25,902 nucleotides of DNA from a virus, in the IMG/VR virus record IMGVR_UViG_3300022752_000344, positions 1 to 25,902 of that record; one strand, given 5' to 3'. A model generated the notes under the pieces. It had not been told where the DNA came from. It worked only from the letters and a program-made list of their open reading frames with translations, and did no database searches. A program made the translations under genes and the position numbers. Position 1 is the first letter of the stretch. Each line of letters opens with the position of its first letter. Of the stretch, positions 1 to 6,600 are shown piece by piece.

Positions 1-12
1 TTCGTGAGCCAT
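1..12 (-). CDS. Start of a gene running off the left edge
   Basis: Only the first four codons (Met-Ala-His-Glu) lie in the window. The start is supported by a GAAAGG ribosome binding site 7 nt upstream and by a full promoter at 43-71 on the same strand. Nothing can be said about function. Confidence 0.55.
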
Positions 13-42
13 TTTTTTCCTTTCATTAGTTATTTACAACCA

Positions 43-71
43 ATCTTAGCAGACATGGGTGAGAATGTCAA
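43..71 (-). promoter_or_regulatory. Promoter for the gene leaving the left edge
   Basis: Reading the minus strand, TTGACA (66-71) and TAAGAT (43-48) are separated by exactly 17 bp. It follows the GCCGCC motif at 126-140 and a CGGCGTGTCG block near 93-102, the same arrangement as at other early promoters here. Confidence 0.8.
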
Positions 72-125
72 ACTATATTGGGGAAATGTCCCGACACGCC
101 GTAAACTTGACAAAGCCAGGTTTTG

Positions 126-140
126 CGTGGCGGCAAATTT
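126..140 (-). promoter_or_regulatory. Oriented GCCGCC motif, copy 1
   Basis: Minus strand AAATTTGCCGCCACG. This is one of six copies found only between early transcription units, each pointing in the direction of the following transcription. It sits between the end of the 150-aa gene and the next promoter. A phage-specific operator, or a stoperator-like site, is the likely role (inference). Confidence 0.6.
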
Positions 141-144
141 AAAA

Positions 145-165
145 GGCCAGTTTTAAATCATGGCC
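145..165 (-). repeat. Covarying hairpin, copy 1 (GGCCA/TGGCC)
   Basis: A five-base stem GGCCA/TGGCC with an 11-nt loop lies just downstream of the stop codon at 188. The loop TGATTTAAAAC closely matches those of the copies at 1018-1038 and 1373-1393, while the stem differs at two pairs, both compensated. This supports a real RNA or cruciform structure. In this copy the stem is followed by TTTT, so it could also terminate transcription. Confidence 0.65.
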
Positions 166-187
166 CAGGATCTTGGATAGCCCCCTA

Positions 188-640
188 TCACAAAGTTGTG
201 ATGTTATCCACTTCTGCATCTGCACTTACGTCGTATGCATATGAATCGACATTGACATACAAATCAAGATTATCAATATCAAAATCTTTGAGGTCTGCAA
301 GTGGGATGCTAACAGTTCCTGTGATTGTTGCAGTTGCTTCGAATTCAATATCTCTAGTTGGATTTAATCCAAAGATGCTGCAGATATCAGAGACAATCTC
401 CTCTGAATCCATATCAAGATATTCAGGAAGACGATTTTCTAATTGTCCTACCTTATCAGAATATTCTGATAGTCTCTTAGATTTTCTACGGGCTTGTTCT
501 AGGTCCCATTCAATCTCTGTTACCTTTACGGTGGGATATGAGATAGTTTGGTCCGTCGCATCCAAATCAATAACCTTGTAGGTTACTAACTGGTTAGGGT
601 TGTAGTGGGCTGGTACTACTGTTTCGTTATTTGTTTCCAT
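188..640 (-). CDS. Conserved-type phage hypothetical protein, 150 aa
   Basis: No function is recognised. The protein is acidic. Residues 45-70 (…EWDLEQARRKSKRLSEY…) look like a short amphipathic helix or coiled coil. The C-terminal half is beta-rich, with alternating hydrophobic residues (…EFEATATITGTVSIP…, …LDLYVNVDSYAYDV…). Its ATG directly follows the TAA of the 87-aa gene (TAA-ATG), so the two are translationally coupled and share the promoter at 935-963. Similar small proteins occur in actinobacteriophage early regions, as far as I recall. Hairpin copy 1 follows the stop. Confidence 0.85.
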   Translation of the reverse strand: METNNETVVPAHYNPNQLVTYKVIDLDATDQTISYPTVKVTEIEWDLEQARRKSKRLSEYSDKVGQLENRLPEYLDMDSEEIVSDICSIFGLNPTRDIEFEATATITGTVSIPLADLKDFDIDNLDLYVNVDSYAYDVSADAEVDNITTL

Positions 641-904
641 TTATTCAATGTCCTTTCCCATTGCTTCCATTTCTTTTATTGTTTCTAGCATATCATTTAT
701 TTGGCTTTCGGTCAAGCAGGCATGAGTAACTAGAGTAGCAGTCATCGCTGATAGATGAGCAGAATACATATACATTGCTTTGATAAAATCATCTTCATCT
801 AGTTCGTGTCTGTGATGAAAAATAGCAGAAGCCATTCCCATAACTTCCTCATCATGAACGGCATCTCTCGTTGCCTCTTGTATTGCTAATGCTGTTGATA
901 TCAT
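641..904 (-). CDS. Small acidic alpha-helical hypothetical protein, 87 aa
   Basis: No function is recognised. The sequence is predicted mostly helical and Met-rich, with a His pair at about residue 30 (IFHHRHEL) and an acidic C-terminus (…ETIKEMEAMGKDIE). A strong AGAAAGGAAAG ribosome binding site precedes the ATG. It is the first gene of the two-gene operon driven by the promoter at 935-963, which carries a CRP-like box 64 bp upstream of its predicted start. It is therefore a good candidate for a cAMP/CRP-responsive gene (inference). Confidence 0.85.
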   Translation of the reverse strand: MISTALAIQEATRDAVHDEEVMGMASAIFHHRHELDEDDFIKAMYMYSAHLSAMTATLVTHACLTESQINDMLETIKEMEAMGKDIE

Positions 905-934
905 TAGGGCTTTCCTTTCTGTTGGTAAGTATTT

Positions 935-963
935 AGTTTAGCAGAAATCAGGGAAAAATACAA
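935..963 (-). promoter_or_regulatory. Early promoter for the 87-aa/150-aa operon
   Basis: TTGTAT (958-963), 17 bp spacer, TAAACT (935-940) on the minus strand. The centre of the CRP-like box at 984-999 falls near -63.5 if transcription starts 7 nt after the -10, close to the classical class I position of -61.5. Confidence 0.75.
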
Positions 964-983
964 ATCGTGCCGTAAATGCCCCC

Positions 984-999
984 TGTGAGAAAAATCACA
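984..999. promoter_or_regulatory. CRP/GlxR-like operator, site A
   Basis: TGTGAGAAAAATCACA is a perfect match to TGTGA-N6-TCACA, the known consensus of CRP and of actinobacterial GlxR. It lies between GCCGCC motif copy 2 and the promoter at 935-963. Confidence 0.75.
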
Positions 1000-1000
1000 T

Positions 1001-1014
1001 GTGGCGGCAAATTT
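1001..1014 (-). promoter_or_regulatory. Oriented GCCGCC motif, copy 2
   Basis: Minus strand AAATTTGCCGCCAC, one base from CRP-like site A and just after hairpin copy 2. Confidence 0.6.
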
Positions 1015-1017
1015 TGG

Positions 1018-1038
1018 GAGCAGTTTTACATCATGCTC
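1018..1038 (-). repeat. Covarying hairpin, copy 2 (GAGCA/TGCTC)
   Basis: Stem GAGCA/TGCTC with an 11-nt loop TGATGTAAAAC and a conserved TCCT just 5' on the minus strand. It is the same element as at 145-165 but with two base pairs exchanged in a compensated way. Confidence 0.65.
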
Positions 1039-1047
1039 AGGATGAAG

Positions 1048-1121
1048 GTTCTCAAGGGACTTTCGCAACAAGATCAATGCAATCTAGTTTTGCATCGCAG
1101 GTTGCCTTGAACGCAGAGAAC
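1048..1121 (-). ncRNA. Candidate structured RNA, about 74 nt
   Basis: Four nested complementary segments enclose each other: GTTCTC (1048-1053) with GAGAAC (1116-1121), AAGG (1054-1057) with CCTT (1105-1108), CAAC (1066-1069) with GTTG (1101-1104), and ATGCAA (1077-1082) with TTGCAT (1090-1095) around a 7-nt loop. The region has no open reading frame with a ribosome binding site. It lies downstream of the 55-aa gene, so it may be a processed 3' RNA. The strand is assumed from the neighbouring transcription. It lacks a T-arm, so it is not a normal tRNA. Confidence 0.4.
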
Positions 1122-1128
1122 AATTTTG

Positions 1129-1173
1129 TTGTGACGGGAATCTAGATGATTACACAGTTCAAACCCGTCACAA
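1129..1173 (-). terminator. 10-bp inverted repeat after the 55-aa gene
   Basis: Perfect arms TTGTGACGGG (1129-1138) and CCCGTCACAA (1164-1173) with a 25-nt loop begin 5 nt after the stop codon of the 55-aa gene. There is no long U-tract, so termination is uncertain. It may instead protect the 3' end or form the 5' side of the structured RNA region. Confidence 0.45.
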
Positions 1174-1178
1174 TTCTA

Positions 1179-1346
1179 TTAGTATGTTTTTACCATAGCA
1201 AATCTGGTTTGGTTATTTGCCAAGCGTAGCATAACTTTGGTGACATTGTGACGCATTGGAACGAACTTTTCAATACGACCTGTGATACCTGTTTTGCTTG
1301 TGGTGAATAAGTCACCGACCTGGTAAGTATAGCCTCCGAGTGTCAT
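1179..1346 (-). CDS. Small beta-barrel-like protein, 55 aa, paralogue of the 54-aa gene
   Basis: Begins MTLGGYTYQVGDLF and contains KTGITGRIEKFVP. The pattern Y-x-VGD-x-(F/Y)-T-x(2)-K-x(0-2)-(I/V)TG-x-I-x(3)-VP is shared with the 54-aa protein at 1934-2098, so the two are paralogues. The size and beta-strand pattern suggest an SH3-like fold (inference); function is unknown. The start is set by AGAAAGGAAA upstream of the ATG. No promoter is seen between it and the 140-aa gene, so it is probably the second gene of that operon, separated from it by hairpin copy 3. Confidence 0.8.
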   Translation of the reverse strand: MTLGGYTYQVGDLFTTSKTGITGRIEKFVPMRHNVTKVMLRLANNQTRFAMVKTY

Positions 1347-1372
1347 TTGTATTTCCTTTCTGTTGGTGTGTT

Positions 1373-1393
1373 GAGCAGTTTTATCTCATGCTC
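1373..1393 (-). repeat. Covarying hairpin, copy 3, between two genes of one operon
   Basis: Stem GAGCA/TGCTC, 11-nt loop TGAGATAAAAC, preceded by TCCT. It lies between the 140-aa gene and the 55-aa gene, with no promoter following it. That argues against a simple terminator and for an RNA-processing, stability or translation-control element. Confidence 0.65.
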
Positions 1394-1404
1394 AGGAGAG
1401 TAAT

Positions 1405-1827
1405 TTACAAGTATCTTGCGATAGAGTTGTAAGTAGAAGTGGAAACTGTTTCCTCATCTGTCATCTTGAGAATACGGATAGCGTTCTCAATTTCATCTAC
1501 CATTTCCTTGTATTGCCACTCATGATAAGTGTCAAAATCCTTTTCAGGTTCTTTTGGTAGGTCAATAGCACCTTTAGGCAAGCCAAAAGAAACATGAACC
1601 ATGCCATTGTATCTTAGATTAGCAGATAAGTCCTCTGCCTTGCTGATAGCGTTGAGAGCGAGTTTAGCAACATCTTTAGACCACTTTTCGTGAGCCTTCT
1701 GATACTTCTCCTCGTTAGTTGCTTGATTAGCCTTATCCTTTTGGATTTGTGCTAACTTTGTTTCTAATGCCTTGATTACCTTTGTGGTGGCAATTTTGAC
1801 ATTTATGGATTTGTTATTTCTAGCCAT
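1405..1827 (-). CDS. Conserved phage hypothetical protein, 140 aa, coiled-coil
   Basis: Very basic N-terminus (MARNNKSINVKIATTKVIK), then a long charged helix at about residues 15-70 that could form a coiled coil, then NLRYNGMVHVSFGLPKG and a C-terminal helix with LKMTDEETVSTSTYNSI. I recall closely similar proteins in many actinobacteriophages, always without a known function. The start follows AGAAAGGAAAAAC, and the promoter at 1854-1882 lies 27 bp upstream. Confidence 0.88.
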   Translation of the reverse strand: MARNNKSINVKIATTKVIKALETKLAQIQKDKANQATNEEKYQKAHEKWSKDVAKLALNAISKAEDLSANLRYNGMVHVSFGLPKGAIDLPKEPEKDFDTYHEWQYKEMVDEIENAIRILKMTDEETVSTSTYNSIARYL

Positions 1828-1853
1828 TTGTTTTTCCTTTCTGTGGGGTATCT

Positions 1854-1882
1854 ATCCTAGCATTTCTAAGATAAAAAATCAA
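1854..1882 (-). promoter_or_regulatory. Promoter for the 140-aa/55-aa operon
   Basis: TTGATT (1877-1882), 17 bp, TAGGAT (1854-1859) on the minus strand. It abuts hairpin copy 4 and has no CRP-like box. Confidence 0.75.
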
Positions 1883-1885
1883 ATT

Positions 1886-1909
1886 GAGCAGTTTAGCCTT
1901 GACATGCTC
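1886..1909 (-). repeat. Covarying hairpin, copy 4
   Basis: Stem GAGCA/TGCTC with a longer 14-nt loop that still ends in TAAAC. It lies downstream of the 54-aa gene and directly against the next promoter. Confidence 0.55.
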
Positions 1910-1933
1910 AGGTCAGGTTAGCCTACGCTAAAA

Positions 1934-2098
1934 TTACGCTTTCCAAGTTGTCCAGCGTGTATTGCCTTCAACATCAAGTTTTACACGAACCGAGCCATTG
2001 GCGTTCGGCACGATTTCCTTGATAACACCTGTTACCTTAGACTTTTGTGAAGTGTAGGTATCTCCTACCTTGTATAGTGCTGACTTACGACCTGCCAT
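1934..2098 (-). CDS. Small beta-barrel-like protein, 54 aa
   Basis: Begins MAGRKSALYKVGDTYT, continues KVTGVIKEIVPNANGSVRV and ends TRWTTWKA. It is a paralogue of the 55-aa protein at 1179-1346, sharing VGD, the TG-x-I core and VP. Five or six short strands suggest an SH3-like barrel; no function is known to me. An AAAAGGAGAAAC ribosome binding site sets the start, and a TTGACA promoter lies at 2136-2165. Confidence 0.8.
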   Translation of the reverse strand: MAGRKSALYKVGDTYTSQKSKVTGVIKEIVPNANGSVRVKLDVEGNTRWTTWKA

Positions 2099-2135
2099 TT
2101 GTTTCTCCTTTTCTAGTGGTTGTTATTACTGTATT

Positions 2136-2165
2136 ATTATGACATTTTGGGTTGTATTTTGTCAA
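2136..2165 (-). promoter_or_regulatory. Promoter for the 54-aa gene
   Basis: TTGACA (2160-2165) and CATAAT (2136-2141) on the minus strand with an 18-bp spacer. Confidence 0.65.
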
Positions 2166-2179
2166 GTCCAAATACCATA

Positions 2180-2198
2180 AATCTCATTATTTGAGATT
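2180..2198 (-). terminator. Hairpin overlapping the micropeptide stop
   Basis: Arms AATCTCA and TGAGATT with a 5-nt loop overlap the stop codon of the 21-aa gene. There is no clear U-tract, so it may be a weak terminator or a 3'-end stabiliser of the gp88 transcript. Confidence 0.4.
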
Positions 2199-2262
2199 AG
2201 TGACCTAGCCCTGCGAACACAAGCAGAAGCCCTATCACTAATAAGATTATTATTGTTTCCAT
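2197..2262 (-). CDS. Membrane micropeptide, 21 aa
   Basis: METIIILLVIGLLLVFAGLGH is essentially one transmembrane helix. A good ribosome binding site, AAGGGGA, lies 5 nt before the ATG and overlaps the end of the gp88-like gene, so it is the second gene of that operon. A hairpin follows immediately. Function is unknown. Such short hydrophobic peptides can act on host membrane proteins or in superinfection exclusion (inference). Its very small size leaves some doubt. Confidence 0.55.
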   Translation of the reverse strand: METIIILLVIGLLLVFAGLGH

Positions 2263-2270
2263 TAGTCCCC

Positions 2271-2987
2271 TTATCTCTTTTTGGCACTAAACACTATGTC
2301 TGCCTTGTTATAGACACACAAGGAACATTTTACACAAGCAGAGCCTTCTTTGTCAATTAGGGGAATTGCTTTTTTATTTTCAGGGCATTTAGCACCTACC
2401 CTGCCAATCATATCTTTCATATCTGCCTGTCCTATTGCGAAAGTATCGGCAAGGTATGCTAATCTAATTCCACTTTGAGATAACTCTACGGCTTCTTGTT
2501 TGTTATCTGTATCAGTACTAAAATAGAGAGATAAGTTGTCAATCTCTTTTAGCATACGGGCTGCGGAGGGTACTCTAGTATAAACCCAAAATTGTATGTC
2601 AGGATTATTTAGAATAACGTGCTTCCATGCGAAAGTGTAAGTGTCATTGAAAAAGTCCCCGTCCCAATGAATACGAAAAAGTTTCGGGGCATTGCGTTTA
2701 TCACAATCAGCCCTAAACTCATCTATCATGTCGGAGATAAGTTTTTCCATAGTGTCATGGTCTGCGTCTTTGAGCAGGTTCCAATTATGGAGTAGAGTAT
2801 CCCTTACTCCTTTGTAAATCTTTTCGAGTTTTCCTGCGTAGCATACCTTAGAACAAGTAGGTGTTTGGTTAGGGCATGAGAAATCTTTTCCAGCAGGTAA
2901 TCCGAAAGTGTTGGCAATCGTTGGGGTTTTTCCGTTTGGTGATACGGCATTGGCTACCTTTCTATCGTTAGAGCGTTTTAGTTTCAT
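2271..2987 (-). CDS. Gp88-family phage protein, 238 aa
   Basis: I recognise the family of mycobacteriophage gene product 88 (GP88 domain). The sequence opens with a basic tail, then SCPNQTPTCSKVCYAGK with Cys at 38, 45 and 49, a central FRIHWDGDFFNDTY segment (residues 104-117), and WVYTRVPSA at about 134-142. It ends with a second Cys cluster, C201 and C218-x2-C221-x2-C224. The two clusters suggest metal or Fe-S binding. The biochemical role is not established to my knowledge. Length is normal for the family. The start follows AGAAAGGAACCCC, and the promoter at 3009-3037 lies inside the upstream 43-aa gene. Confidence 0.85.
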   Translation of the reverse strand: MKLKRSNDRKVANAVSPNGKTPTIANTFGLPAGKDFSCPNQTPTCSKVCYAGKLEKIYKGVRDTLLHNWNLLKDADHDTMEKLISDMIDEFRADCDKRNAPKLFRIHWDGDFFNDTYTFAWKHVILNNPDIQFWVYTRVPSAARMLKEIDNLSLYFSTDTDNKQEAVELSQSGIRLAYLADTFAIGQADMKDMIGRVGAKCPENKKAIPLIDKEGSACVKCSLCVYNKADIVFSAKKR

Positions 2988-3008
2988 GGGGTTCCTTTCT
3001 GACCTTCA

Positions 3009-3037
3009 AGAATAACATTTTAGTGTGGTTTTGTCAA
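3009..3037 (-). promoter_or_regulatory. Promoter for the gp88-like gene
   Basis: Consensus TTGACA (3032-3037), 17 bp, TATTCT (3009-3014). The -35 and part of the spacer are coding sequence of the 43-aa gene. Confidence 0.75.
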
Positions 3038-3151
3038 ATTTTTGTGTTTAACTTTTCGGGAATAAACTTTCTTGTTCCTTAATGGGGCAGCAGCGTTAGA
3101 TCTCCGTAACTCTTGAATACGGCGTATTTCTGACTGCGTTTTTTTATACAT
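3020..3151 (-). CDS. Leaderless basic small protein, 43 aa
   Basis: Begins MYKKTQSEIRRIQELRRSNA and ends VKHKNLTKPH. About a third of the residues are Lys or Arg, so nucleic-acid binding is possible. The motif RRSNAA-x-P-x-RNKK resembles short basic proteins I recall from actinobacteriophages, of unknown role. There is no ribosome binding site. Instead the -10 TAAGAT lies 6 nt before the ATG, so the mRNA should begin at the start codon. Its 3' third carries the gp88 promoter. Confidence 0.7.
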   Translation of the reverse strand: MYKKTQSEIRRIQELRRSNAAAPLRNKKVYSRKVKHKNLTKPH

Positions 3152-3157
3152 GAAATA

Positions 3158-3186
3158 ATCTTATCAGATTTCGGGAAAAAAATCAA
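3158..3186 (-). promoter_or_regulatory. Leaderless promoter for the 43-aa gene
   Basis: TTGATT (3181-3186), 17 bp, TAAGAT (3158-3163). The ATG at 3151 starts 7 nt after the -10. The upstream sequence contains CAAATCGGAC (minus strand GTCCGATTTG), also seen near 6491 and 7112. Confidence 0.75.
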
Positions 3187-3221
3187 ATCCCACGTAATTG
3201 GGAGTTTCTGTACAAATCGGA

Positions 3222-3236
3222 CGGGGCGGCAAATTT
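3222..3236 (-). promoter_or_regulatory. Oriented GCCGCC motif, copy 3
   Basis: Minus strand AAATTTGCCGCCCCG. It overlaps the stop codon of the 70-aa gene and is followed by GTCCGATTTG and then the 43-aa gene promoter. There is no CRP-like box here. Confidence 0.6.
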
Positions 3237-3447
3237 ATTCTAAAATAAATAATTCAAATTGTTCATCATCAAAAATTTCTAGCACATCTTTCTCGCCATA
3301 CTCATCTTCATGAATTAAAACAAAACCTTCTTTAGTTGGTGTGATAGAAATAATTTTGACAATACTCTCTGCAATACCAATTAGATCGTTTTCTTCTAAT
3401 TGGTCTGCATTGAGCACATCAACCATGCGATAATCCATAGTTAGCAT
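3235..3447 (-). CDS. Acidic small hypothetical protein, up to 70 aa
   Basis: Core NADQLEENDLIGIAESIVKI followed by FVLIHEDEYGEKDVLEI. It looks like a small acidic beta-barrel with a Gly-containing turn. No function is recognised. It is the last gene of a five-gene operon from the promoter at 4296-4324. The start is uncertain: ATG at 3447 has only a weak TAGG upstream, and ATG codons at 3438 and 3426 are in frame. Confidence 0.75.
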   Translation of the reverse strand: MLTMDYRMVDVLNADQLEENDLIGIAESIVKIISITPTKEGFVLIHEDEYGEKDVLEIFDDEQFELFILE

Positions 3448-3453
3448 TGTAGC

Positions 3454-3663
3454 CTATTTTATAGTTACTCTGCCGTCAGCATAAAAGTTTTTTGTATACA
3501 TTTTACCTGTTGGGTCTGTGAGATTATAGGTTGCGTATTCTTTAGCGTTGCCGTGGTCTTTACACAAAGCCCAAAGTTGAGCAGCATCAGTAAAGTCAGC
3601 AATTCGGTGAGTATTGTATAACTCTCCGTCATAGTAAGTAGTTATTACATACATATATTCCAT
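3454..3663 (-). CDS. Small hypothetical protein, 69 aa
   Basis: Begins MEYMYVITTYYDGELYNTHR. It is Tyr-rich, with YNLTDPTGKMYTKNFYADG near the C-terminus, a beta-alpha-beta-beta pattern. No function is recognised. The ATG lies one base after the TAA of the 26-aa gene, with GGAAG as ribosome binding site, so it belongs to the packed operon 4266-3235. Confidence 0.78.
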   Translation of the reverse strand: MEYMYVITTYYDGELYNTHRIADFTDAAQLWALCKDHGNAKEYATYNLTDPTGKMYTKNFYADGRVTIK

Positions 3664-3664
3664 T

Positions 3665-3745
3665 TTAGTCTTCCATTTCCTCTCTCATAGCCTCATGCCA
3701 CGAATTTTCATCATACCAAATTTTATTTAGTGTGTCATATTGCAT
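3665..3745 (-). CDS. Micropeptide, 26 aa
   Basis: MQYDTLNKIWYDENSWHEAM followed by REEMED. It is acidic and Trp-containing, probably one amphipathic helix. It has a strong GAGAGG ribosome binding site and fits exactly between two genes, with a TAA-A-ATG junction on both sides. That precise packing is the main evidence that it is translated. Role unknown. Confidence 0.65.
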   Translation of the reverse strand: MQYDTLNKIWYDENSWHEAMREEMED

Positions 3746-3746
3746 T

Positions 3747-4046
3747 TTAGTATTCCTCTCTTTCAATCACCCATGCGTCTAGGTGGTGTTGTTCAATAAT
3801 AGCCCAAGCAGGGGCAGTAGTCAAACCTTTATAGGTTATGCCTTCAGGCATAGGTATTTCCAAATCCCACAAGCCTAGGTCATTTACGGCGTCAATAGCC
3901 TCAATACAAGGTGCGACCATTGACTTAGGAACGGGTGGATAGTGATTAGCCCGTAGGTGAATACCTATCTGAGTTTCAATATCTAAGTGGATACCTAACT
4001 CATCAAGCGTTCCGTCTGCCATTTCTGTTGCCATATTGCTTCCCAT
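3747..4046 (-). CDS. Conserved-type phage hypothetical protein, 99 aa
   Basis: Starts MGSNMATEMADGTLDELGIH and contains NHYPPVPKSMVAPCIEAIDA and APAWAIIEQHHLDAWV. I recall this HYPPVP/EAIDA type from actinobacteriophages, without known function. The start at 4046 is preferred over the longer frame (4085) because it follows the TAA of the 72-aa gene by one base and has GAGG upstream. The longer version would overlap that gene by 38 bp. Confidence 0.82.
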   Translation of the reverse strand: MGSNMATEMADGTLDELGIHLDIETQIGIHLRANHYPPVPKSMVAPCIEAIDAVNDLGLWDLEIPMPEGITYKGLTTAPAWAIIEQHHLDAWVIEREEY

Positions 4047-4047
4047 A

Positions 4048-4266
4048 TTAGTTAGCCTCGCCTGTTGCGAAAATTGACAATTCACTTTCAGAGAGTAATC
4101 CGTTATCCCAAATTACATCTCCGTCCTCATCAAGAATTAGTCCATAAGGATTACACTCGCAATCCTCAATGTCATAGTCCTCGCCATTAGCAAAGCCATG
4201 ATAACCTTTTCCGTAGCACAAATCGCAATTAGCGATAGTGCGTAGTGCGTATTCCAATTTATCCAT
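4048..4266 (-). CDS. Half-DnaJ-type zinc-binding small protein, 72 aa
   Basis: CDLCYGKGYHGFANG is followed by ECN-type Cys residues (EDCECNP). This resembles one CxxCxGxG repeat of the DnaJ central zinc domain plus a CxC pair, so one zinc could be bound by four Cys. The acidic C-terminus (ILDEDGDVIWDNG…) is not part of DnaJ. A shorter relative lies at 7760-7867. It is the first gene of the operon, with an AGAAAGGATAA ribosome binding site and the promoter at 4296-4324. The target is unknown. Confidence 0.82.
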   Translation of the reverse strand: MDKLEYALRTIANCDLCYGKGYHGFANGEDYDIEDCECNPYGLILDEDGDVIWDNGLLSESELSIFATGEAN

Positions 4267-4295
4267 TTTTATTTATCCTTTCTTTCAATACTGAA

Positions 4296-4324
4296 ATCCT
4301 ATCATGGGGGACTGACAAAATCAA
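4296..4324 (-). promoter_or_regulatory. Promoter of the five-gene operon 4266-3235
   Basis: TTGATT (4319-4324), 17 bp, TAGGAT (4296-4301). TTTGTCAGT directly follows the -35, and GGGCGTG plus GGATTTGA precede it, the block shared with other early promoters here. Confidence 0.78.
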
Positions 4325-4338
4325 ATCCCCACGCCCTA

Positions 4339-4836
4339 TTACCACGAGGAAGTGTAGTAAAAGGACAATTTGGACATTTCAGGCAGAGCAAATACTCTGT
4401 CCAATTTAGACTTAGTATTCTTTAGGTCATTCCAATACCATTCGTCAATATCAGTAGAGCCAAAGAAAAATCCTTCTTGTGGGGGTAGCAAATTAGGGTT
4501 GCGTTCTGCCAAAGCCCTATTAACTAGATCAAGTAGGTCTTTCAATTTCTCATGGGATACATAGTATTCCCCACAATTATCGTTGCCACCTTGAACATTA
4601 TTTACAAACCAAGCGTGTATCTGATTAGCCTTACGCCAATAAGCACAAGTCACTTCAACATGAACGCCATAGATATCAACGGCAACATCTTTCATTCCTG
4701 CCGTTTCAACAATATTATTCCATAGAGGGAATACTACTTCAGGAGAGTCATAGGATAATTCATCATTATCCTGTAACGCCTGCCAATTAACTTTTTCCAC
4801 GTATTTCTTAGCGTGGAGATACATATCTAATCCCAT
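4339..4836 (-). CDS. Conserved phage protein of the MGLDMYL type, 165 aa
   Basis: The start MGLDMYLHAKKYV and the core VTCAYWRKANQIHAWFVNNV followed by GGNDNCGEYYVS are hallmarks of a widespread phage and bacterial family that I recognise by sequence but that has no established function. The length is typical. The ATG is fused to the TAA of the 64-aa gene (TAA-ATG), so the two are coupled. The C-terminus STDIDEWYWNDLKNTKSKLD is also conserved in this type. Confidence 0.88.
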   Translation of the reverse strand: MGLDMYLHAKKYVEKVNWQALQDNDELSYDSPEVVFPLWNNIVETAGMKDVAVDIYGVHVEVTCAYWRKANQIHAWFVNNVQGGNDNCGEYYVSHEKLKDLLDLVNRALAERNPNLLPPQEGFFFGSTDIDEWYWNDLKNTKSKLDRVFALPEMSKLSFYYTSSW

Positions 4837-5031
4837 TTAGATATTTCCTTTCTGTTTTGATTTTTCCAAATCTTTTTTTTCATTTGCTACAAAGCGTTGT
4901 AGGTCTTTTAGATTTTCATCTGTGAGGTAAGTGGAGATAACTCCAAAAGAATAAGCGTATTCGCTATAACCTTTTTCTTTTGCGATAGCAATTAGGCTAT
5001 CAAGTATTTTTGTTCTGTCTAAACTATTCAT
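4837..5031 (-). CDS. Small helical hypothetical protein, 64 aa
   Basis: MNSLDRTKILDSLIAIAKEK followed by GYSEYAYSFGVIS and a Lys-rich C-terminus. It is predicted helical; function unknown. The start at 5031 is chosen because it sits behind GAAAGGAAAACTA, the usual ribosome binding site pattern here. The ATG at 5046 lies inside that site. It is the first gene of a two-gene operon under the promoter at 5059-5087 and its CRP-like box. Confidence 0.8.
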   Translation of the reverse strand: MNSLDRTKILDSLIAIAKEKGYSEYAYSFGVISTYLTDENLKDLQRFVANEKKDLEKSKQKGNI

Positions 5032-5058
5032 TAGTTTTCCTTTCATTTTCAGGCTTCT

Positions 5059-5087
5059 AGCCTATCATTTTCTACTGACATTTTCAA
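5059..5087 (-). promoter_or_regulatory. Promoter of the 64-aa/165-aa operon
   Basis: TTGAAA (5082-5087), 17 bp, TAGGCT (5059-5064). ATGTCAGT follows the -35 and GGGCGTGTCTGA precedes it. CRP-like site B is centred near -77.5. Confidence 0.78.
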
Positions 5088-5121
5088 ATCAGACACGCCC
5101 AGATTTCGGGAAAAATTCAGG

Positions 5122-5137
5122 TGTGATAATAATCACG
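5122..5137. promoter_or_regulatory. CRP/GlxR-like operator, site B
   Basis: TGTGATAATAATCACG, one mismatch from TGTGA-N6-TCACA. It lies between the DnaA boxes and the promoter at 5059-5087. Confidence 0.6.
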
Positions 5138-5149
5138 TCATAAACACCC

Positions 5150-5170
5150 TGTGGATAACCCTGTGGAAAA
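5150..5170 (-). promoter_or_regulatory. Two DnaA boxes
   Basis: On the minus strand TTTTCCACA (5162-5170) and TTATCCACA (5150-5158) are in the same orientation, 12 bp apart start to start. The second is the perfect consensus; the first fits TTWTNCACA. They lie in a 140-bp gene-free stretch. Confidence 0.6.
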
Positions 5171-5185
5171 CGTGGCGGCAAATGT
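5171..5185 (-). promoter_or_regulatory. Oriented GCCGCC motif, copy 4
   Basis: Minus strand ACATTTGCCGCCACG. It abuts the DnaA boxes on one side and the inverted repeat on the other. Confidence 0.6.
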
Positions 5186-5219
5186 TGAAACTTCAACCAA
5201 TTTAGTCAAAGTTTCAACA
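5183..5219 (-). terminator. 11-bp inverted repeat after the 48-aa gene
   Basis: Perfect arms TGTTGAAACTT (5183-5193) and AAGTTTCAACA (5209-5219) with a 15-nt loop, 7 nt downstream of the 48-aa gene stop. It is AT-rich without a U-tract, so it could be a terminator-like 3' hairpin or, with the DnaA boxes, part of an origin. Confidence 0.5.
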
Positions 5220-5226
5220 ATTTAAT

Positions 5227-5373
5227 TTAGATCTTTATTTCATTCCATTTCATCTCAGCAATTTCTTTACGCAAATTTTTATTTTCAATTTCAAATCTAC
5301 GCAAATTCATTAGCATTCCAAAAAAGAAAACGCCGAATGAAATTAGAGCGAATGTCAAAATTATTTCTGTCAT
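5227..5373 (-). CDS. Single-span membrane protein with coiled-coil tail, 48 aa
   Basis: MTEIILTFALISFGVFFFGM forms one transmembrane helix, followed by a charged tail (LRRFEIENKNLRKEIAEMK) with heptad-like spacing. The ATG overlaps the TGA of the 63-aa gene (ATGA), so it is translationally coupled as the last gene of the operon 6139-5227. Positive charges after the helix suggest a cytoplasmic C-terminus. Function is unknown; an accessory lysis or membrane-anchoring role is possible. Confidence 0.72.
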   Translation of the reverse strand: MTEIILTFALISFGVFFFGMLMNLRRFEIENKNLRKEIAEMKWNEIKI

Positions 5374-5561
5374 GCGTTTATTAGTCCTAACTCATCAACG
5401 CCACACGCTTTCTCAAAACGGGCTTTATCAAATCTGTCATTATCAGCGAGAAAGAATTGAGCAAATTCCTCTACCAAATCCTCAAATACCTGTGGGTGTA
5501 TCTCGCCAGAAAATCCAGCGAGAATGTTAGCAGTTTCAATATAGTCTTTACGAGTCATCAT
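5370..5561 (-). CDS. Small acidic phage hypothetical protein, 63 aa
   Basis: MMTRKDYIETANILAGFSGE, then VFEDLVEEFAQFFLADNDRF and ARFEKACGV. This helical MTRKDY…FED…F…ADN…FD…RF…AC pattern is, as I recall, common in phages of actinobacteria and marine bacteria, with no known function. The start overlaps the previous stop (TAATG); a second ATG one codon later is equally possible. GAGGTG serves as ribosome binding site. Confidence 0.82.
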   Translation of the reverse strand: MMTRKDYIETANILAGFSGEIHPQVFEDLVEEFAQFFLADNDRFDKARFEKACGVDELGLINA

Positions 5562-5821
5562 TAGTTAGACACCTCATCTAGTAGAATGAACGCATGAGTG
5601 CCACCTTCATTGACACGCTCTAATTCTGAAAGTAATTCATCACGAGTTAGAAGTGAAGCATTACCTACTAATTCTGTTACTGCCTGAATATTTAGGTCTG
5701 TTACAACCTGCGTAGGAAGTTTAGCAAGTGAGCCTGCGAATGGAGAGTTAGCGTTAATGCGTGAAATAAATTTTACGCCATCTACCACGAATGGGTAGTC
5801 TGTATAGTTAGTTGTTGTCAT
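5561..5821 (-). CDS. Small hypothetical protein, 86 aa
   Basis: Begins MTTTNYTDYPFVVDGVKFIS and ends THAFILLDEVSN. A beta-hairpin-like N-terminus (FVVDGVKFISRI) is followed by two helices (VVTDLNIQAVTELVG, RDELLSELERV). No function is recognised. The start at 5821 is preferred to the longer frame at 5863, since it has AAGAAAGG upstream and leaves the 40-aa gene intact. Confidence 0.78.
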   Translation of the reverse strand: MTTTNYTDYPFVVDGVKFISRINANSPFAGSLAKLPTQVVTDLNIQAVTELVGNASLLTRDELLSELERVNEGGTHAFILLDEVSN

Positions 5822-5822
5822 T

Positions 5823-5945
5823 TTAGTTTTTACCTTTCTTGGGTGTGTTAGTTGTATTGACAAGTTTAGCGATTTTCTCTAGGTTTGTCAAGCGAGTAGC
5901 CTCACGCTCTTTCTTGACTAATTCTTGGAATTCATGAAGTTTCAT
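5823..5945 (-). CDS. Small basic helical protein, 40 aa
   Basis: MKLHEFQELVKKEREATRLT followed by NLEKIAKLVNTTNTPKKGKN. It is probably a single long amphipathic, Lys-rich helix. The start overlaps the previous stop (TAATG) and has AAAGGTGG upstream. The GAAAGG-like site for the next gene lies within its last codons. Role unknown. Confidence 0.7.
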   Translation of the reverse strand: MKLHEFQELVKKEREATRLTNLEKIAKLVNTTNTPKKGKN

Positions 5946-6139
5946 TAGTCTGCCACCTTTACTGCGACAGTAGCCCAACGAGAGCCATTGAAACGAATTG
6001 CGTAGGCTTCATAGCCGTCAAGCCAAATATCCTCACGCTTTTCAGCGAAAGTAATTTCGCCGTATTGGTATTTTCTCGCAAGTGAGCGAGGGTAGTAAGT
6101 TTGACCTACAAGAAGGTCTGGAATTGAATAAGTTTTCAT
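5945..6139 (-). CDS. Small hypothetical protein, 64 aa
   Basis: MKTYSIPDLLVGQTYYPRSL followed by YGEITFAEKREDIWLDGYEAYAIR and RWATVAVKVAD. It is beta-rich with a YYPR motif. I recall similar short proteins (MKTY…VG…YYPR…ATVAVKV) in actinobacteriophages, of unknown function. It is the first gene of the five-gene operon to 5227, with an AGAAAGGATAACTAA ribosome binding site. Confidence 0.82.
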   Translation of the reverse strand: MKTYSIPDLLVGQTYYPRSLARKYQYGEITFAEKREDIWLDGYEAYAIRFNGSRWATVAVKVAD

Positions 6140-6553: not shown

Positions 6554-6568
6554 CGTGGCGGCAAATTT
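6554..6568 (-). promoter_or_regulatory. Oriented GCCGCC motif, copy 5
   Basis: Minus strand AAATTTGCCGCCACG, identical to copy 1. GGGCGTGTCG lies between it and the tandem CRP-like boxes. Confidence 0.62.
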
Positions 6569-6570
6569 AT

Positions 6571-6600
6571 AGTCTGCCAAATTTATTGACAGACTTTTTT
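6571..6600. terminator. Hairpin after the 48-aa acidic gene
   Basis: AGTCTG (6571-6576) and CAGACT (6590-6595) form a 6-bp stem followed by a T-run on the plus strand. It lies just past the stop of a minus-strand gene. A terminator for either strand is possible, although no plus-strand transcript is evident here. Confidence 0.4.

Follow-up and report, generated by a model that had tools for sequence, protein, structure and literature searches.

A 27-base pseudoknot with an invariant core past the stop codons of phage genes: a candidate barrier to 3′-to-5′ mRNA decay

Introduction

The left third of the 25.9-kb virus record IMGVR_UViG_3300022752_000344 (positions 1–25,902; the whole of this stretch is referred to as the window) is coded on the minus strand and carries four copies of a short RNA element. 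What structure does the element form, which phages use it, and what does it do for the genes that it follows? An earlier note on the window had described the copies as hairpins, repeated by the phage after early genes, and had proposed that a protein or RNase recognises them. We show here by computation that the element is, with near certainty, a 27-base H-type RNA pseudoknot with a nearly fixed core, that it lies in the 3′ untranslated region (UTR) of phage genes at a defined spacing from the stop codon, and that relatives of the phage replace it by a stem-loop plus promoter. We infer that it blocks exonucleases.

Structure and covariation of the element

The pseudoknot is composed of stem 1 (S1), which has 4–7 base pairs (bp) with a closing C-G pair, loop 1 (L1) with the sequence CU, stem 2 (S2) of the form nnnYA/URnnn, a linker of one nucleotide (nt), and loop 3 (L3), which ends in AAAC. 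The 5′ strand of S2 is located inside the loop of S1, and both helices covary. The loop is not single-stranded: its GAnn pairs with the nnTC before the stem, which turns the presumed hairpin into an H-type pseudoknot.

The structure is established by covariation across viral sequences. An exact scan for GAGCATGANNTAAAACTGCTC in IMG/VR found the strict form in at least 119 stretches. In 109 of the 109 distinct strict instances among the matches listed, the base before TCCT (position -5) pairs with the first variable loop base (position 8), compared with an expected 41%, and the pair types AT, TA, CG, and GC are all present. The next S1 pair is formed, G-U counted, in 80% of these instances versus 44% expected. 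This covariation of S1 rules out a plain hairpin. In scans in which both members of a base pair had to differ, irrespective of complementarity, the altered bases were paired in 20/20 distinct cases for S1 and in 30/30, 57/65, and 16/16 for S2. Across 71 distinct sequences, 96.7% of cells pair, versus 74.9 ± 1.1% after shuffling (0/500 shuffles as high) and 28–42% with slid partners, although many of the loci come from related viruses and the counts are not independent events. This kinship is a small worry, since the pair types and hosts are varied. The covariation score of the 71 sequences is 0.589 versus 0.181. A descriptor search returned 311 matches versus 0–1 with permuted motifs, and 321 matches versus 2 on reversed sequence. 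The covarying RNA element that the earlier note had proposed is thus borne out.

The same descriptor identifies exactly four copies in the window, all on the minus strand, which is the coding strand of the region, and at the places previously reported:

144–173, minus strand: pseudoknot copy 1; S1 AGAUC/GAUUU, L1 CU, S2 GGGCCA/UGGCCU, L3 ending in AAAC
1018–1044, minus strand: pseudoknot copy 2; S1 CAUC/GAUG, L1 CU, S2 GAGCA/UGCUC, L3 UAAAAC
1373–1399, minus strand: pseudoknot copy 3; S1 UCUC/GAGA, L1 CU, S2 GAGCA/UGCUC, L3 UAAAAC
1886–1915, minus strand: pseudoknot copy 4; S1 UGAC/GUCA, L1 CU, S2 GAGCA/UGCUC, long L3 AGGCUAAAC

For a 21-base pattern with up to three mismatches, the chance expectation in the window is 0.02. 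In 5′-to-3′ orientation, the sequence of copies 2 and 3 is NNTCCTGAGCATGANNTAAAACTGCTC and that of copy 4 is TGACCTGAGCATGTCAAGGCTAAACTGCTC. The earlier description of a TCCT followed by a TGAnnTAAAAC loop does not extend to copy 4, which is preceded by ACCT and has the loop TGTCAAGGCTAAAC. The deviation is informative because the TGAC of this copy pairs with GTCA. Copy 1 had been credited with two compensatory pair changes. It does covary, but the relatives L146 and L179 have GGGCA/TGCCC at this site, and copy 1 therefore differs from the common form by the paired insertion of one C-G pair and a change from A-U to G-C.

The invariant core

There is hardly any variation in the closing C-G pair of S1, the CU of L1 (rarely CC), the junction-side A-U pair of S2, the one-nucleotide linker, and the AAAC preceding the 3′ strand of S2, whereas the remaining S1 pairs and the outer S2 pairs vary freely. 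The linker base is most often U, followed by A, C, and G. Among 2.9 million viral contigs, there was no case with the junction-side A-U pair altered on both sides and none with the tested A of AAAC altered; the second base of L1 was altered in four cases, all from U to C. Longer inserts are tolerated in L3 or the linker. One pseudoknot of L186 has a long insert in L3. The 3′ flank of the element reads A[AC][CT]T rather than ACCA, which rules out a mimic of a tRNA 3′ end.

We infer that the fixed core serves a tight fold rather than contact with a protein: CU would lie in the deep groove of S2, and the AAAC strand in the shallow groove of S1. Luteovirus-type pseudoknots, such as the frameshift pseudoknot of beet western yellows virus, have an S1 of about 5 bp, a 2-nt L1 starting with C, a 1-nt junction, and an A-rich L3 in the shallow groove. 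The phage element shares this layout. It differs from the frameshift pseudoknot in its location past stop codons, the lack of a slippery site, a spacing that is not tied to the reading frame, and an S2 whose 5 bp include fixed A-U and C-G pairs next to the junction. Frameshifting or read-through is ruled out, as distances of 8, 9, 10, and 11 nt from the stop codon are all common, and at 8 nt the consensus itself holds an in-frame TAA.

Distribution among phages

The element is confined neither to this phage nor to early genes; unrelated tailed phages and one microvirus also have it. The named carriers comprise phages of cyanobacteria, actinobacteria, proteobacteria, and firmicutes as well as a crAss-like phage and the microvirus, and include Synechococcus phage S-EIVl, cyanophage S-RIM4, Nostoc phage NMeng1, Mycobacterium phage Labelle, Paracoccus phage ParKuw1, Vibrio phage D456, Lentibacter phage ICBM3, Erwinia phage Berlingot, Roseobacter phage SIO1, Lactobacillus phage phig1e, crAss-like phage cr7_1, and microvirus MW202581, which has a copy in a genome of 5 kb with eight annotated genes. 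Virus records contain about one to seven copies each, with about 70 pattern matches versus 2 for a backward-pattern control. In classical phages, scanning with a very loose pattern produced nothing but noise. In 84,980 bacterial and archaeal genomes, the strict pattern occurs in 12 stretches only. Five of these cellular loci were checked: one has an integrase, and others match phage families of unknown function.

Positions 1–6000 of the window had no megablast match among named phages. The left end of the window is 99.7% identical to a contig (L133, RGSB01000062.1) in the metagenome bin Actinomycetota bacterium WB8_2xO_007. This suggests a freshwater actinobacterium as the host, although viral contamination of the bin is also possible. 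No Rfam 15 family reached its gathering score, and none covered the copies at E-values up to 10. We found no description of the element in openly accessible papers; subscription papers and preprints were largely outside the search, and a prior description there is possible.

Position relative to genes and tRNAs

Open frames of at least 50 codons end within 160 nt upstream of 295 of 321 copies (92%). The distance from the closing C of S1 to the stop codon is never less than 7 nt and has its mode at 8 nt, regardless of the length of S1. This minimum of 7–8 nt fits the clearance required by a terminating ribosome, as known from ribosome footprints. About half of the copies are farther from the stop codon, at up to 150 nt. 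In gaps between co-directional genes, 155 copies are oriented along the direction of the genes and one opposite to it. The next start codon follows within 60 nt in 66 cases. Some copies are located at convergent gene ends with nothing co-directional downstream. A location in 5′ UTRs is ruled out, since most of the apparent divergent cases had an overlooked open reading frame upstream. In L009 (7404–7508), L109 (3333–3444), and L186, two pseudoknots stand in succession past one stop codon; the second is about 80 nt on in L009 and L109.

In 46 copies, a tRNA starts 3–13 nt downstream (median 4). The strict pseudoknot occupies 38 of 93 junctions between a coding sequence and a tRNA, with relaxed versions at many of the others, and 0 of 42 junctions between two tRNAs; therefore, it is a feature of the coding gene's 3′ end. 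An element of tRNA 5′ ends, similar to theta ribozymes, is thereby ruled out. The upstream genes are functionally mixed (Hsp20, RNA ligase, HNH, SSB, and tail proteins), which rules out a tie to one gene function. PHROG 1221, of unknown function, is upstream in 15 of 100 sampled cases.

The copies in the window are located in the 3′ UTRs of minus-strand open reading frames or between them:

188–640, minus strand: open reading frame of 150 amino acids, with copy 1 in its 3′ UTR
1179–1346, minus strand: open reading frame of 55 amino acids, between copy 3 (upstream) and copy 2 (downstream)
1405–1827, minus strand: open reading frame of 140 amino acids, with copy 3 in its 3′ UTR
1934–2098, minus strand: open reading frame of 54 amino acids, with copy 4 in its 3′ UTR

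Copy 1 is 14 nt past the stop codon of gene 188–640 and is followed by the promoter-like sequence TTGACA-N17-TAAGAT (71–43). Copy 4 is 18 nt past the stop codon of gene 1934–2098, with a possible promoter, TTGATT-N17-TAGGAT, directly after it. Copy 3 begins 5 nt past the stop codon of gene 1405–1827, and gene 1179–1346 starts 26 nt further on with no promoter between them. Copy 2 is 134 nt past the stop codon of gene 1179–1346, and a possible 31-codon frame ends nearer to it. This frame, whose TGA precedes the CCT of copy 2 by 10 nt, is located in a conserved minus-strand stretch (1045–1178) that is possibly an unannotated small gene and has an inverted repeat (1129–1138/1164–1173) alongside.

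Termination and exchange with stem-loops

Does the pseudoknot end transcription? At least six T residues occur in the next 8 nt in only 26 of 295 copies. In the window, promoter-like sites follow copies 1, 2, and 4, and none follows copy 3, which is located within an operon. The junction of copy 3 was compared with its orthologues: 14 distinct sequences, from the window and its relatives, have the pseudoknot there and lack a consensus promoter ahead of the next gene. Eight other relatives have a strong stem-loop and a promoter in its place, and no sequence has both together. The 3′ arm of the stem-loop supplies the promoter-like -35 sequence TTGACT, followed by a 17-nt spacer and a -10 sequence such as TAAACT or TAGACT. 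Copy 4 is apparently replaced by a stem-loop in L233. The scarcity of U-tracts and the lack of a promoter after the pseudoknot at the copy-3 junction rule out an ordinary intrinsic terminator, in agreement with the earlier note.

Repeats similar to AAATTTGCCGCCAC (minus strand; 127–140, 1001–1014, 3225–3236, 5172–5183, and 6555–6568) end the early minus-strand transcription units and are possibly tied to the promoter region behind them. They are preceded by a pseudoknot in two cases, a hairpin in two, and directly by a stop codon in one. Near-perfect minus-strand hairpins without a U-tract, at 5180–5222 and about 6558–6600, begin about 8 nt past stop codons, the same spacing as that of the pseudoknots.

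Discussion

We propose, at roughly even odds (about 0.5), that the pseudoknot is a compact barrier that guards the 3′ end of the mRNA of the upstream phage cistron. It would fold once the terminating ribosome permits, at least 7–8 nt past the stop codon, and its strict core would form a compact triple-stranded fold. RNA polymerase would not be stopped by it. After cleavage or shortening of the polycistronic RNA further downstream, such as by RNase P at a neighbouring tRNA, 3′-to-5′ exonucleases would be halted at the pseudoknot before entering the upstream gene. The reading is favoured because of the ribosome-limited closeness to the stop codon, the exchange with stem-loops, the lack of termination, and the placement just before RNase P cuts. 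PNPase and RNase II need a 3′ tail of about 7–10 nt, and the tail that RNase P would leave at the tRNA-adjoining copies is mostly shorter.

Several observations weigh against this proposal. T4, T7, lambda, N4, P-SSM2, SPO1, and phiKZ have no clear copy; the pseudoknot is thus dispensable for phages generally. Convergent gene ends, where protected 3′ ends are most needed, are not enriched (8/136 gaps versus 156/1116 tandem gaps). Terminators may do the work at convergent or operon ends, leaving the pseudoknot for internal 3′ ends. Moreover, exonucleases could be blocked by a simple 9-bp hairpin with no need of such strict conservation, and the invariant CU, CA/UG, and AAAC therefore require that the fold be very special or that there be a specific partner.

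Such a partner defines the main rival explanation, in which the pseudoknot is bound by a conserved host protein or ribonucleoprotein (a chaperone or a factor of RNA decay or translation) recruited to phage messages, and the invariant bases are its contacts. The near-absolute invariance of L1, the junction pair, and AAAC next to freely covarying outer pairs would suit it, and so would carriers that have no obvious phage gene in common. A dedicated phage-encoded partner is unlikely because the 5-kb microvirus, with its eight annotated genes, has a copy. However, the host partner would have to be universal among Bacteroidota (by the crAss-like affiliation), Lactobacillus, Synechococcus, Mycobacterium, and Vibrio, and yet the strict form is nearly absent from the bacterial and archaeal genomes; we consider this explanation unlikely. 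The recognition by a protein or RNase proposed in the earlier note may occur. An endoribonuclease of host or phage that separates cistrons by cutting at the element, also suggested there, would fit the intercistronic location without promoter or terminator. The idea is very improbable, since the bases that do not vary are found at the helix junction and in the loops crossing the grooves, the tRNA-adjoining copies already have an RNase P cut nearby, and we know of no universal RNase of such specificity.

The sharp minimum and mode of the stop-codon distance, independent of S1 length, correspond to the mRNA entrance of a ribosome with the stop codon in the A site. They could mark a translational device, a fold met by the front of the terminating ribosome that keeps it from reading through, sliding on after termination, or re-initiating, and insulates the next gene or tRNA. 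Nevertheless, the same minimal distance is expected of any 3′ structure, stem-loops substitute for the pseudoknot in relatives, and the distant copies, together with the second pseudoknots of L009 and L109, stand out of reach of this role, which makes it quite improbable. A terminator or pause element, to which the promoters after window copies 1, 2, and 4 and the T runs of a few copies might point, has only a slight chance of being correct: besides the rarity of T runs, the 14/14 promoterless copy-3 junctions mean that termination would silence the next gene, and 46 copies directly precede tRNAs. The least probable is that the element acts on a downstream gene or tRNA, either as a riboswitch (a regulatory 5′ element) or as a self-cleaving ribozyme. 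The compact pseudoknot with its conserved core, at times directly 5′ of tRNAs, is reminiscent of these, but it tracks the upstream stop codon rather than one kind of downstream gene, occurs at convergent ends and at no tRNA-to-tRNA junction, and resembles no Rfam family.

The proposed barrier can be compared with several known systems. Repetitive extragenic palindromic (REP)-type and other 3′-UTR stem-loops shield bacterial mRNA from 3′-to-5′ exonucleases. Like them, the phage element is located just past stop codons and between co-transcribed genes and lacks a U-tract, and stem-loops take its place at the orthologous site in relatives. Unlike those hairpins, whose sequence is free, it is a pseudoknot with an invariant core, and it is widespread among unrelated phages and rare in cellular genomes. 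The exoribonuclease-resistant RNAs (xrRNAs) of RNA viruses are likewise small, strictly conserved folds that stop an exonuclease, as the phage element would. However, xrRNAs stop 5′-to-3′ enzymes and define 5′ ends, whereas the phage element is at 3′ ends; a role in shielding downstream RNA is ruled out, as the element belongs to the upstream coding sequence and occurs at convergent ends. Theta ribozymes, which are similar to those of hepatitis delta virus, adjoin phage tRNAs (PMC10879173). The phage element is also often directly 5′ of tRNAs, but it is a single pseudoknot of about 27 nt, tied to the 3′ ends of coding sequences, and matches no Rfam ribozyme. Phages can carry the RNAs of type III toxin-antitoxin systems (ToxI and its relatives), which are likewise H-type pseudoknots, about 30 nt long; the phage element lacks their tandem array before a toxin gene, and an antitoxin RNA is ruled out because the copies are single or double and scattered behind diverse genes. 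In structure the element is an H-type pseudoknot, and in function it is probably a 3′-UTR stabiliser, both of them known in kind; what surprises is its scale, its invariance, and its restriction to phages.

More tentatively, and at less than even odds, the element may represent a hitherto undescribed, phage-specific RNA family in which a minimal pseudoknot with a fixed core acts as a directional block to bacterial 3′-to-5′ exoribonucleases, common to double- and single-stranded DNA phages across bacterial phyla. If so, it would be the 3′-end counterpart of viral xrRNAs. The presence of a 27-nt RNA with an invariant core in otherwise nearly unrelated phages, and its rarity in bacterial genomes, point to a common problem of phage gene expression with a common solution. 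The pseudoknot can serve as a marker of phage gene ends in genome annotation. If it protects 3′ ends, it would explain stable cistrons inside long polycistronic or tRNA-containing transcripts, and would provide a portable stabiliser of very small size, as well as a clean way to test how an RNA fold stops PNPase, RNase R, and RNase II.

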